NCBI RefSeq assembly: GCF_012027395.1
Contig: NZ_SNUJ01000001.1
Location: forward strand, 682,001-746,000
From: Thermococcus sp. LS1
Lineage (GTDB): Archaea; Methanobacteriota_B; Thermococci; Thermococcales; Thermococcaceae
DNA: 64,000 bases
Reading direction: 5' to 3'
The translations under genes were made by a program, and so were the position numbers. Positions within the stretch are counted from its first letter, which is position 1. The number at the start of each line of letters is the position of its first letter. The notes beneath the pieces are model-generated. The model was given only the letters and a program-made list of their open reading frames with translations. It ran no database searches and was not told the origin of the DNA. Positions 41,280 to 45,990 of the stretch are shown here, piece by piece.

Positions 41280-42161
41280 ATGTCCTCCATTGAGGTAAGA
41301 GGCCTCTCCAAATGGTACGGCTCAAAAAAGGCCCTCAGCAACGTTTCCTTCACAGTGGAAGAGGGCGAAATAGTGGGAATAATCGGGCCGAATGGAGCGG
41401 GAAAGACGACACTGATAAGGATTCTGAGCTGTCTCCTGAAACCCGACTCCGGTGAAGTCAGAATTTTTGGAGAGGGGCCCTGCGAAGCGAGGAACCTTTT
41501 TGCACTCCTCCCACAGGACGTTAGGGCCCACTTCTACACTCTAACGCCGAGGGACTACGTTTACCACTACCTCCGCATGCGCGGGCTTTCGAGGAAGAAT
41601 GCGAGGGAGAGAGCTAATAAGGCGATGGAGGCCTTTGGGATAGACTACGCCGACGAGCTCTTCTCAACCCTCTAGGGCGGAATGGTGGGAAGGGCCCTCC
41701 TGGTGATGGTTTTCTCGGAGGAGGTTCCGCTCTACTTCCTCGATGAGCCGACCGTTGGCCTTGACGTCCAGAACAGGCTCAAGCTCTGGGAGATGCTCCG
41801 TGAGAGGGCTGAGGAAGCCACAATAATCCTCACCAGCCACTACCTCAACGAGATATCGAGCGTCTGCGATAGAGTGCTCCTCCTCAGGGGAGGGAGGGTG
41901 GTTGCGGATGGCAAGCCGGAGGAGATAGCGAAGGACTATTTGAGCGGTTTCATCTCGAAGATTGTAGCTTTTGAGGGAGTCTCCCTTGAGGGCGTCGTCA
42001 TTAGAAGGGCTGGAAGGCAGGTCTACCTCTACGCGCGCTCCAAAGCGGAGGAGAGGGAAATCATCGAGAGGCTTGAGGAACTCGGAGTGCCCTTCAAAAG
42101 GGAGGAGGTAACCATAGAGGACGTCTTCTTGGTGGGTGGTATCGGTGATGGCCCTGATTGA
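41280..42161 (+). pseudogene. ABC transporter ATPase interrupted by a stop codon in its signature motif
   Basis: Reading through gives a 293-residue ABC ATPase of the drug/multi-drug export type: [20 protein letters not shown], Walker [29 protein letters not shown], then FSTL-stop-GGMVGRALLVMVF, Walker B YFLDEPTVGLD and H-loop LTSHYLNEIS. The TAG at 41673-41675 stands where the Ser of the LSGG signature belongs; one base change (TCG to TAG) explains it. Downstream codons remain perfectly in frame, so the event is recent, or it is a sequencing error. A product starting at the ATG at 41682 would lack Walker A. The permease gene follows with overlap. Confidence 0.85.
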
Positions 42162-42900: not shown

Positions 42901-43101
42901 ATGGAGGAGATAGAGGCAGTTTACGAGAACGGTGTCTTTAAGCCGCTCAAAAAGCCCCATCTTAAGGAGAAAGAGATGGTTGTCATAGTCGTCAAAGAGA
43001 AGGTTATCACTAAAAACTTCCTTAAAAAACTTGAGGAATTCAGTGAGACCCTCCCAAAGTTCCAAAGCCCCTCAAAACTCCTTGAGGAGGACAGGAGATG
43101 A
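42901..43101 (+). CDS. AF2212/PG0164-like antitoxin (DUF104)
   Basis: The 66 residues begin MEEIEAVYENGVFKPLKKPH and continue KEKEMVVIVVKEKVITKNFL, the short beta-rich DUF104 antitoxin family. In Thermococcales these genes usually precede VapC-type PIN toxins. The stop overlaps an ATGA start of a 28-codon open frame beginning MIVV, the expected position and opening of such a toxin, but the toxin gene is destroyed. AACGGTGAG lies before the ATG. Confidence 0.85.
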   Translation: MEEIEAVYENGVFKPLKKPHLKEKEMVVIVVKEKVITKNFLKKLEEFSETLPKFQSPSKLLEEDRR

Positions 43102-43184
43102 TAGTGGTTGGTGTGAACATGTCATGGATATCTCTGCGAAGGCAGATTTTCCGTAAACCTCTTCTTTTGGGGTTAAATCTTTGA
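43098..43184 (+). pseudogene. Wrecked VapC-like toxin gene, N-terminal stub
   Basis: The frame starts at the ATGA overlap with the antitoxin and reads MIVVGVNMSWISLRRQIF, then stops after 28 codons. PIN toxins start MIVVDTNV; here the catalytic Asp is already replaced (VGVN) and the rest is missing. The gene arrangement, not the remaining sequence, is the main support. Confidence 0.5.
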
Positions 43185-43400
43185 AATTCTGTCTAAAAGA
43201 TCAAAAGTTAGCTTTTACTGTCCGTGTGTATTCCTCTGTCCTCTCTTTTACTCTTGCTTCTATTGACTTACCCTCGTCATTTTGCCATCGTTGTAAGTTG
43301 AAAATCATACGAAAAAACGTTAGCTAATCCAACTAGTAAAAAGAAAAGTTCATATAATCTCGTGCATTATTTCAAGTGACCAACTGGTCAGGTAGTAGCC

Positions 43401-44475
43401 ATGGAGTGGAGGAGAACAGCCTTTGGTTTGTTTCTTGTGGCTATGGTGTTGAGCCTGCAGTTGATCGCAGCACCACAGGCAATGGCCATGAGCACTAACA
43501 ACGCCAGCGTGACCTTCCGTAGAGCGGTCGTTGCCTGGTACGACGACAGGGGCAGGCTTCAGATGAACATTACCTGGGTGAATCAAAACAATAGACTTCG
43601 CGAACTTAACGAACTCTTCCTGCGCGTGTCACAACTCAAGTTCCTGCAATTCCAACTTGACCGCTAACCTCAACGTTTCCGTGGTTACCCTCTACAACCT
43701 GACGAAAAAGCATGAGCAGTTACTATTCTTTGGCGTTAGCCTGTACAATGAGACATTCAACTACACGATGTACGCCCTCGTTTACAAGGCTGAAAGGAGT
43801 CAGTACAACTTCACGCTAATTACTAAAATACTCACTGATCCTAAGACGGGTAGGTATAAGGCTTTCGTCACAGGAATGAATATTGCTCCAAACAACGAGA
43901 AGAGGGTTGTTCCAGTTGGGGATACAATACTCACTGCGAACAATTTGACGCTCTCTCAGTATTACTGGACTTTGAATAAGGTTCTCATGAAGCTCCGCAG
44001 GGGTGACGAGACTAACTGGATTTGGGGCAGGAGTGCATTCGAGTTAAGGCACTTATCCCACCTCGTGAGGCTCAACCTTTCAAAGTATGACCTGCAGGCA
44101 AATTTGGGATATACCATAACTATTGATGACTACTCAGCGTGCTCTCACCTCTGTGATTTAGCATGTACCTCGGCTTTTACTATAGTATGTTTGGGTGCTA
44201 TGGCATCCAGTGGGGGATGGCTTGGTGTAGCTTGTCTCCTTGGCGGGGGATTTTGTACAGTGGGATGTAGTGCTCTATGCAACTCAGGATGGGGATGGAA
44301 TACAATTGTAAGCGGGGGCTGCTCTTATGCTTGCAGTGAACTCATTATAAAGACTGGAGTTTGTGGAAAGATATGTCCTGGATTCATTCCTGGATGCCGC
44401 AGTGGCTGTGCAGCTGTTTTAACTCCTATATTCTGCCCTCAATTCTGTGCGGCTATTAGTGCATTGCTGCCCTAG
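43401..44475 (+). pseudogene. Secreted cysteine-rich halocin-C8-like precursor, split by a frameshift
   Basis: Two frames together make one protein. The first (43401-43667) starts MEWRRTAFGLFLVAMVLSLQ and has a clear signal peptide ending near PQAMA. The second is open from 43582 and contains NLTNSSCACHNSSSCNSN, a domain of about 150 residues, and a C-terminal region (44140-44475) with 16 cysteines in about 115 hydrophobic residues, e.g. CSHLCDLACTSAFTIVCLG and GGGFCTVGCSALC. Precursor layout (signal, long N domain, Cys-rich hydrophobic tail) and spacing recall halocin C8, an archaeocin cut from the C terminus of its precursor. One extra base near 43584-43593 would explain the shift. The membrane protein that follows may belong to it. 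Confidence 0.6.
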
Positions 44476-44517
44476 AGTTTTTATTTTTCCTAATTCAATA
44501 AGCCCGTGGTGGTCTCT

Positions 44518-45303
44518 GTGAAGGGAAAAAAGGTCCTTGTAATGATTATTTACATGGTGGTGCTCGGCATAGCACCGTTTAGCTTTATCTGGATAGAGCA
44601 TGGTGGCATGACCCTTGAATGGGCTCTTGGTACGGTTGCTTTCCTCCTCCTCACGGTGGCCTCGATGGTGTTCTTTCTCGCCCGCGTTCTTGAGAAACAC
44701 GGGTACAGCAAGAAGGACATCAAAAGGCTCCACGTGATTCTTGAAGAGCACTGGGAGGAGCCGTGGGAATGGGGGTACCTGAAGTACGACGTGCAGCGGT
44801 ATATTGCCTACCACATTGTTTTCTGGGGGTTCCTCAGTACGGCTCTCCTGGAGCTTCGAGATGTTTCTCTGGTCATCGTGGGGTTTATTGGCGTAATCTT
44901 CGTGCTGGTGACATTCTATCCGATTCTTGCCACAATGATAGTATGGTTCCTGTGCCTTCCGTTGTACCTCCTTAAAAACGAAAAAGCCAAAGGGATGTTT
45001 GAATTCGTTGGTAGGTCTTCTCTGGTCTCCACTTTCGGAATCCTGGGTGTTTGGGCCGCTTCCTCTTATTTCACAACGAGGAACTATCCTGAACAAGTTT
45101 TGAACATGTTCAGGGGTGTGGTTAGCAATGCCGGAGGGCTCTTGGTTCTCTCCGCTTTGAACGCTCTATTTGGGGTCTTGGGGATTTATTTTCCGCGTAG
45201 GTTTGACAGAAAAATCGTCACGATGGTTTTACTTACCCTAGCTATATTCGCACTCCTCGTTGTCTGGGATATCCTCACTCAAACTCGAGTCCTCCGGTTA
45301 TAA
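44518..45303 (+). CDS. Multi-pass membrane protein next to the halocin-like gene
   Basis: About 261 residues from the GTG at 44518 (an upstream GTG at 44506 is also possible). There are six to eight hydrophobic segments, with a cytoplasmic loop KHGYSKKDIKRLHVILEEHW between the second and third. No known family is recognised. It starts 42 bases after the Cys-rich gene on the same strand and may serve immunity, processing or export for that peptide. That is inferred from position only. Confidence 0.6.
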   Translation: MKGKKVLVMIIYMVVLGIAPFSFIWIEHGGMTLEWALGTVAFLLLTVASMVFFLARVLEKHGYSKKDIKRLHVILEEHWEEPWEWGYLKYDVQRYIAYHIVFWGFLSTALLELRDVSLVIVGFIGVIFVLVTFYPILATMIVWFLCLPLYLLKNEKAKGMFEFVGRSSLVSTFGILGVWAASSYFTTRNYPEQVLNMFRGVVSNAGGLLVLSALNALFGVLGIYFPRRFDRKIVTMVLLTLAIFALLVVWDILTQTRVLRL

Positions 45304-45390: not shown

Positions 45391-45990
45391 TTAAACTTGG
45401 TCTAGCTCCTGATTTACATTTTCCTCAAGCCTCTTCAGCTTGGCCTTAAAGCGCCTCACCTGGGCGTTGCCCATCTCGACGATTCTGGCGATGTACTCCT
45501 CATCAACCCAGAGCTCCCCATCCTCCCCGAGGGGAACGTCCATCCTCTCAGTGGAGCGTATCTCAACGACCAGCTTCTTGTGGCTGACGCTCTTTATGTT
45601 GGAGTACTTGAACCCGAGGCCTATAGCCAGGTTAAGGAGCTTTACAGCGTCCTCCAAAGTTCTGGCGGAAACATGGAGGATGGGGCTCCTCACCATGAAC
45701 CAGAGCTGACCGCTGGAGTGCTTTTTGATGGCTTCAAGGACTTCCCCGAGCTCGACTTCCCTGTGCCACTTGCCGAGCCAGACGGCGTTGATCTTGTCTC
45801 CAAATTCGGGCATCTCCATTACCGAAATCCTTCCGGAGCAGGAGGACGTTGTGAAGTAGTTCTCGAGTGAGTTTATCTTCTCCAAGAGCGGGATTATGTC
45901 CTCATCTACCTTACCCTGCTCCAGCGCCTCCTTAAGGCCCGCCATTGCCTTCTCTCTCTGGAGCTCGAAGTTCTTGGTAAATAGGAACAT
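45391..45990 (-). CDS. taw3: tRNA wybutosine-synthesis methyltransferase Taw3
   Basis: The product has 199 residues. ENYFTTSSCSGRISVMEMP is the hallmark of the TYW3/Taw3 family, followed by FMVRSPILHVSARTLEDAVK and LNLAIGLGFKYSNIKSV. It methylates the tricyclic wyosine intermediate at position 37 of tRNA-Phe using SAM. The length is normal for archaea. It lies 4 bases after the ATPase gene at 45995 on the same strand, so it might be transcribed with it. Confidence 0.95.
   Translation of the reverse strand: MFLFTKNFELQREKAMAGLKEALEQGKVDEDIIPLLEKINSLENYFTTSSCSGRISVMEMPEFGDKINAVWLGKWHREVELGEVLEAIKKHSSGQLWFMVRSPILHVSARTLEDAVKLLNLAIGLGFKYSNIKSVSHKKLVVEIRSTERMDVPLGEDGELWVDEEYIARIVEMGNAQVRRFKAKLKRLEENVNQELDQV

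Follow-up and report, generated by a model that had tools for sequence, protein, structure and literature searches.

A cysteine-rich precursor and its downstream membrane gene in Thermococcus sp. LS1: a likely cassette of a polymorphic archaeocin family

Introduction

Does a secreted, cysteine-rich precursor encoded by Thermococcus sp. LS1, together with the membrane-protein gene directly downstream, belong to a peptide-antibiotic (archaeocin) system, and if so, which part of it protects the producer? The two genes lie at positions 43401 to 45303 of a 64,000-nucleotide stretch (contig NZ_SNUJ01000001.1, positions 682,001 to 746,000, forward strand), hereafter the window, and an original prediction made from its letters alone had read them as a halocin-C8-like archaeocin cassette. 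Based on comparison with relatives, we consider it very likely that the locus is a cassette of a polymorphic archaeocin family, i.e., a secreted tail that would act as the toxin and a cognate membrane immunity gene. Comparison across the family establishes a predicted secretion signal, a modular tail, a type-specific partner, toxin loss with the partner kept and a common promoter.

Anatomy of the precursor

The precursor gene spans 43401–44475 on the forward strand and encodes a signal peptide (the open reading frame, ORF, at 43401–43667 begins MEWRRTAFGLFLVAMVLSLQLIAAPQAMAM), a domain of ~200 residues (the carrier) and a 114-residue tail with 16 cysteines, an anatomy that reanalysis and homologues bore out together with its coordinates. 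The cysteine content of this tail (16/114) far exceeds that of the window's remaining long ORFs, which average 0.63% (P about 4e-17) and hold at most 5 cysteines in any 115 residues, and exactly 16 are kept in all complete class A relatives in Thermococcales. A structural model (pLDDT 63.5) has a beta-rich carrier and an all-helical tail. The window proteins found no family match in Pfam or NCBIfam. The parts of the cassette are:

43401–43490, forward strand: precursor signal peptide, Sec-like; other family members have RK or KK in place of its initial RR
43491–44091, forward strand: conserved carrier (N-)domain, ~200 amino acids (aa), common to all family members; predicted beta strands followed by helices, at modest confidence
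43585–43588, forward strand: frameshift, one extra base in a short A run; the ORF 43401–43667 stops early and homology picks up in the frame 43588–44475
44092–44130, forward strand: linker LQANLGYTITIDD, where carrier conservation stops; probable processing region with presumed cleavage
44131–44472, forward strand: class A1 putative toxin tail, 114 aa, 16 cysteines, hydrophobic, predicted all-helical
44506–45303, forward strand: class A1 membrane protein, P0002, probable cognate immunity protein; GTG start at 44506, or at 44518

Carrier family and tail types

A DNA search of the window's own genome returned two further genes that are alike in the first two thirds only; both end in different cysteine-rich tails, each followed directly by a different small membrane gene. 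Among 201 genomes, sampled as one per species, the carrier was matched in 30, of which 29 belong to the same family as the window genome; the remaining match was weak and was rejected. The weak carrier matches that were rejected, in G120 and G162, did not lie in plausible genes. Extending the search to 396 genomes brought in a convincing carrier from a further archaeal family (G237, E 1.7e-26), and a metagenome-assembled genome (MAG) of Archaeoglobi carries one with a class A tail (L056, 38% identity). No bearers of the carrier domain were seen in the plasmid and viral sequences searched, a search for RNA elements found none, and the carrier is not covered by any Pfam or NCBIfam model. For the family survey, regions of ~10 kb around the genes were cut out and 47 precursors were read, including three in the window genome.

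This one carrier is joined to at least 15 types of tail, which were told apart by visual inspection together with an all-against-all comparison. Their cysteine counts are type-specific and mostly even, i.e., 16 in A1 and A2, 12 in B, 10 in C, 20 in D, 6 in E, 12 in F to H (10 in one H), 10 or 12 in I, mostly 8 in J, and 8 in K. In six sister precursors, whose tails belong to groups F and H, the halocin C8 domain TIGR04449 is recognized above its curated cut-off (e.g., 45.2 bits over residues 251–335 in L089), which ties the carrier to archaeocins. The window's own tail had no match to TIGR04449 at E ≤ 1, and in profile-profile comparison class A reached 7.6% probability against the halocin C8 class, with shuffled controls at up to 14.7%; since this is not above the controls, homology of the two was rejected. 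Judged by its profile, class A is a class apart from halocin C8, with no demonstrable homology. Of the original prediction, the archaeocin cassette has strong if indirect support, with true halocin C8 domains on the same carrier in sisters and a membrane gene that behaves like a cognate immunity gene; a halocin C8 identity of the window tail is not supported.

A second, different carrier, likewise with a halocin-C8-like domain at its end and with membrane genes behind it, was also seen (L101 940–1980, L137 952–2116, L138 on the reverse strand, and L133 157–1405), in Thermococcales and in another archaeon. Two class B precursors (L079 and L095, from G043 and G057) have the N-terminal half swapped for unrelated sequence, with tail and immunity gene intact and nearly identical.

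The downstream membrane gene follows the tail

The gene at 44506–45303 is intact and encodes a multi-pass membrane protein, and homologues in 41 of 101 genomes speak for a real gene. Throughout the family, the first downstream membrane gene groups with the tail type almost one to one. In Mantel tests over 43 loci, leaving out the Archaeoglobi locus, membrane gene similarity correlated with tail similarity at r = 0.86 (P = 0.0002), as against r = 0.11 for the carrier, and partial tests gave 0.856 for the tail given the carrier versus 0.01 (P = 0.42) for the carrier given the tail. Even within class A, all 13 of 13 loci pair an A1 tail with an A1-type gene and an A2 tail with an A2-type gene (P = 0.0008). 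The membrane gene, whose product had been suggested as a possible addition to immunity or export, thus behaves as a cognate immunity gene. As it tracks the tail type and not the carrier, as spare immunity genes occur in arrays and as immunity genes are kept without a toxin (both below), we consider the downstream gene, and not the N-domain that serves in halocin C8, the most likely source of immunity. No Pfam or NCBIfam model covers these immunity genes.

Tails change readily between carriers: those of L068 and L069 are 90% identical and bear unrelated tails, L069 and L071 share tails of 93% identity on carriers of 55% identity, and 15 tail types require 26 changes on the carrier tree. Farther afield, G237 holds a carrier with a tail resembling class G and, with it, the gene of a four-span membrane protein (L130, reverse strand, 1339–2790), a cassette that points to probable horizontal spread; its downstream gene was not accepted as a class G immunity homologue, the relation not being demonstrable. 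Behind the Archaeoglobi precursor (L056 5839–7993) follow a 342-aa membrane protein, a secreted, glycine-rich peptide of 109 aa and a membrane protein of the SpoIIM family (PF01944, E 1e-23), which together resemble another bacteriocin-type unit within this locus.

A family-specific promoter box

The 130 bases upstream of the precursor are conserved together with the carrier and contain two elements, known from genome scans and from an upstream comparison of 36 precursors, respectively:

43300–43318, forward strand: promoter box specific to the family, consensus GAAAATCCTACGAAAAAAA; the window copy has 2 mismatches
43343–43358, forward strand: probable B recognition element (BRE)/TATA box GAAAAGTTCATATAAT, its position conserved across the family

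With up to 2 mismatches allowed, the 19-base box has 3 sites in the window's own 2.0 Mb genome, one just ahead of each of its three archaeocin genes. Over six genomes, 10 of 10 sites precede archaeocin genes (one of them a precursor with a large internal deletion), and a reversed control pattern had none. A role as a general promoter element was rejected, the box being confined to archaeocin genes in the six genomes tested, and this restriction makes a dedicated regulator of the box-bearing genes likely.

Toxin decay and immunity-only loci

The cassette sits beside a conserved gene by which one of the family's insertion sites can be recognized:

45391–45990, reverse strand: conserved flanking gene, TYW3-like by inspection; the site is occupied, immunity-only or empty

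Of the 61 genomes of the genus, 58 have this flanking gene. At the site itself, compared in 30 genomes, 10 have toxin and immunity genes, 6 immunity genes only and 14 neither at E ≤ 1e-5. One of the six immunity-only loci (L170) still has a remnant of a class A2 toxin, its final 21 codons, immediately in front of a class A2 immunity gene. Extra copies of immunity-type genes behind or in front of cassettes make up arrays that match other tail types; the largest such bank seen, L062, has one class A2 toxin gene amid eight immunity-type genes for ~7 toxin classes. Toxin genes are broken by frameshifts, stops, deletions or lost tails in 15 of the 46 cases not cut by a contig end, versus 1 of 41 first immunity genes with a sibling for comparison (Fisher P = 0.0005, counting 14 broken toxins). 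Frequent toxin loss with the immunity gene kept is as expected of toxin and immunity genes, and it argues against the N-domain as the specific immunity factor.

The window precursor is itself affected. Homology to intact relatives follows one frame as far as 43583 and a second one between 43588 and the stop at 44475, i.e., the frame is broken once, by one surplus base in the A run at 43585–43588, in agreement with the split already noted in the original prediction. That prediction had left three readings, of which phase variation is unlikely, given a run of just four A and other family members broken in different ways, and was set aside for want of a slippery tract; a silenced gene and a misread one may both be compatible with the frameshift, which in a 25-contig draft may be a sequence error. 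The class A1 toxin gene is probably disarmed in this strain, or misread. With the toxin gene frameshifted while the immunity gene is intact, the strain is probably an immune non-producer for class A1, unless the surplus base is a sequencing error.

Other features of the neighborhood include an ABC transporter ATPase gene (window 41280–42161) split by an in-frame stop near 41673 into 131 aa and 159 aa of one frame, either a pseudogene or a sequence error, and a small antitoxin-like gene of 66 aa (window 42901–43180), whose expected partner ends after ~27 codons (MIVVGVNMSW...). The tail of a similar gene sits at the broken 5' end of the class A precursor in L057, so that this feature may mark the edge of the insertion site.

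Proposed mode of action and alternative explanations

We postulate that the precursor would be secreted by way of its signal peptide, that the constant carrier domain would retain or deliver the tail, and that a protease could cut at the linker to free the hydrophobic, cysteine-rich C-terminal peptide. This peptide, presumably folded by disulfides, might attack the membrane of related Thermococcales, with the producer protected by the tail-specific membrane protein encoded directly downstream. Carrier and promoter would stay constant while tail and immunity gene are swapped as a unit by recombination, and cells would gather spare immunity genes and often lose the toxin. Several points weigh against this scheme. 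That the tail kills is something we infer, the window tail lacks a match to any known antimicrobial family in Pfam or NCBIfam, and no processing protease is linked to the cassette. A PDB fold search with the modest-confidence precursor model (pLDDT 63.5) gave no match at E ≤ 0.001. Similarity among the membrane proteins is partly compositional, and the Archaeoglobi downstream gene was rejected as a P0002 homologue, its initial clustering being an artefact of uncorrected scoring and the relation not demonstrable.

The pattern of exchangeable tails and membrane partners that vary with them would be the same if the tails were secreted signalling peptides (pheromones or self/non-self markers) and the partners their type-specific receptors, and the shared promoter box suggests regulated, social expression. 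However, the partners range from 62-residue proteins of one or two spans to a 327-residue protein of eight spans and have no known signalling domain; the peptide genes are often broken and the partners seldom, and arrays of many partners without peptides suit immunity better. Moreover, the six sister tails mentioned above are halocin C8 domains, whose founder is an antimicrobial peptide (PMC11509114), and we regard signalling as unlikely. A single gene giving both toxin and immunity, with the N-domain as the immunity protein, would have the same layout as ProC8/HalI/HalC8 (PMC11509114) and had been part of the original prediction, but here the N-domain stays near-constant while unrelated tails and their downstream genes change together, so that the downstream gene follows the tail and the N-domain does not. 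This leaves N-terminal immunity unsupported and the one-gene arrangement rather improbable, and the N-domain may act inside the producer as a general, chaperone-like restraint. Least probable of all, and hardly to be expected, is a structural cysteine-rich surface or adhesion protein with a membrane-anchor partner: the tail is secreted and disulfide-rich and the carrier has many possible N-glycosylation sites (N-x-S/T), yet tail class, cysteine number and length differ wholly between close carriers, occurrence is patchy at the genome counts given above, and no Pfam surface domain is present.

Comparison with known systems

The halocin-C8-bearing members are already recognized by NCBIfam; no model exists for the carrier, the remaining tails or the immunity genes. 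We think it probable that Thermococcales possess a polymorphic arsenal of peptide toxins, found sporadically also in Archaeoglobi and one further archaeal family, in which one carrier under a private promoter box bears the disulfide-rich tails (only one group being halocin C8), each with a separate membrane immunity protein, that class A with its 16 cysteines is a new archaeocin class, and that immunity-only banks occupy a fixed chromosomal site. A literature search found no such system described in Thermococcales, nor a peptide archaeocin from Thermococcus; a 2019 mBio survey of archaeal toxins, outside that search, may list part of the family. This survey of toxins and halocin families, by Makarova and colleagues and cited in PMC8416519, reportedly expanded the halocin C8 family. 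If our reading is true, hyperthermophilic archaea wage modular toxin/immunity warfare like bacteria, the tails must be stable at high temperature, and the separation of immunity from the halocin precursor alters the one-gene picture drawn from halocin C8. The family would also offer toxin/immunity pairs ready for testing in Thermococcus species that are amenable to genetics, and a search rule, i.e., carrier domain plus first downstream membrane gene, for archaeocins missed by current profiles.

The closest known system is halocin C8 (HalC8/HalI, ProC8; TIGR04449), where one gene gives both toxin and immunity (reviewed in PMC11509114). Both combine a signal peptide, a long N-domain and a hydrophobic, cysteine-rich C-terminal peptide in one precursor, and bona fide TIGR04449 domains occur on the window's carrier. 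The window tail, in contrast, is of another class, immunity apparently lies in a separate membrane protein, the carrier has no family model, and the window's twin arginine (WRR) is RK or KK in sister precursors, at odds with export dependent on twin-arginine translocation (Tat). With polymorphic toxin systems (Zhang et al. 2012, cited in PMC6393860), the family shares a constant N-terminal delivery part, an exchangeable C-terminal toxin, a cognate immunity gene directly downstream and orphan immunity arrays (here by association); it differs in that the tails are small, cysteine-rich hydrophobic peptides with no Pfam toxin domain instead of enzymes, and the immunity proteins, like those of peptide bacteriocins, are integral to the membrane. 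VARTIG modules (PMC8416519) are likewise hypervariable, conflict-type loci of the same order, Thermococcales, with recombining C-termini, but the window genes are distinct from them, with no Ig domain by Pfam and no DNNxxxGG C-terminus.
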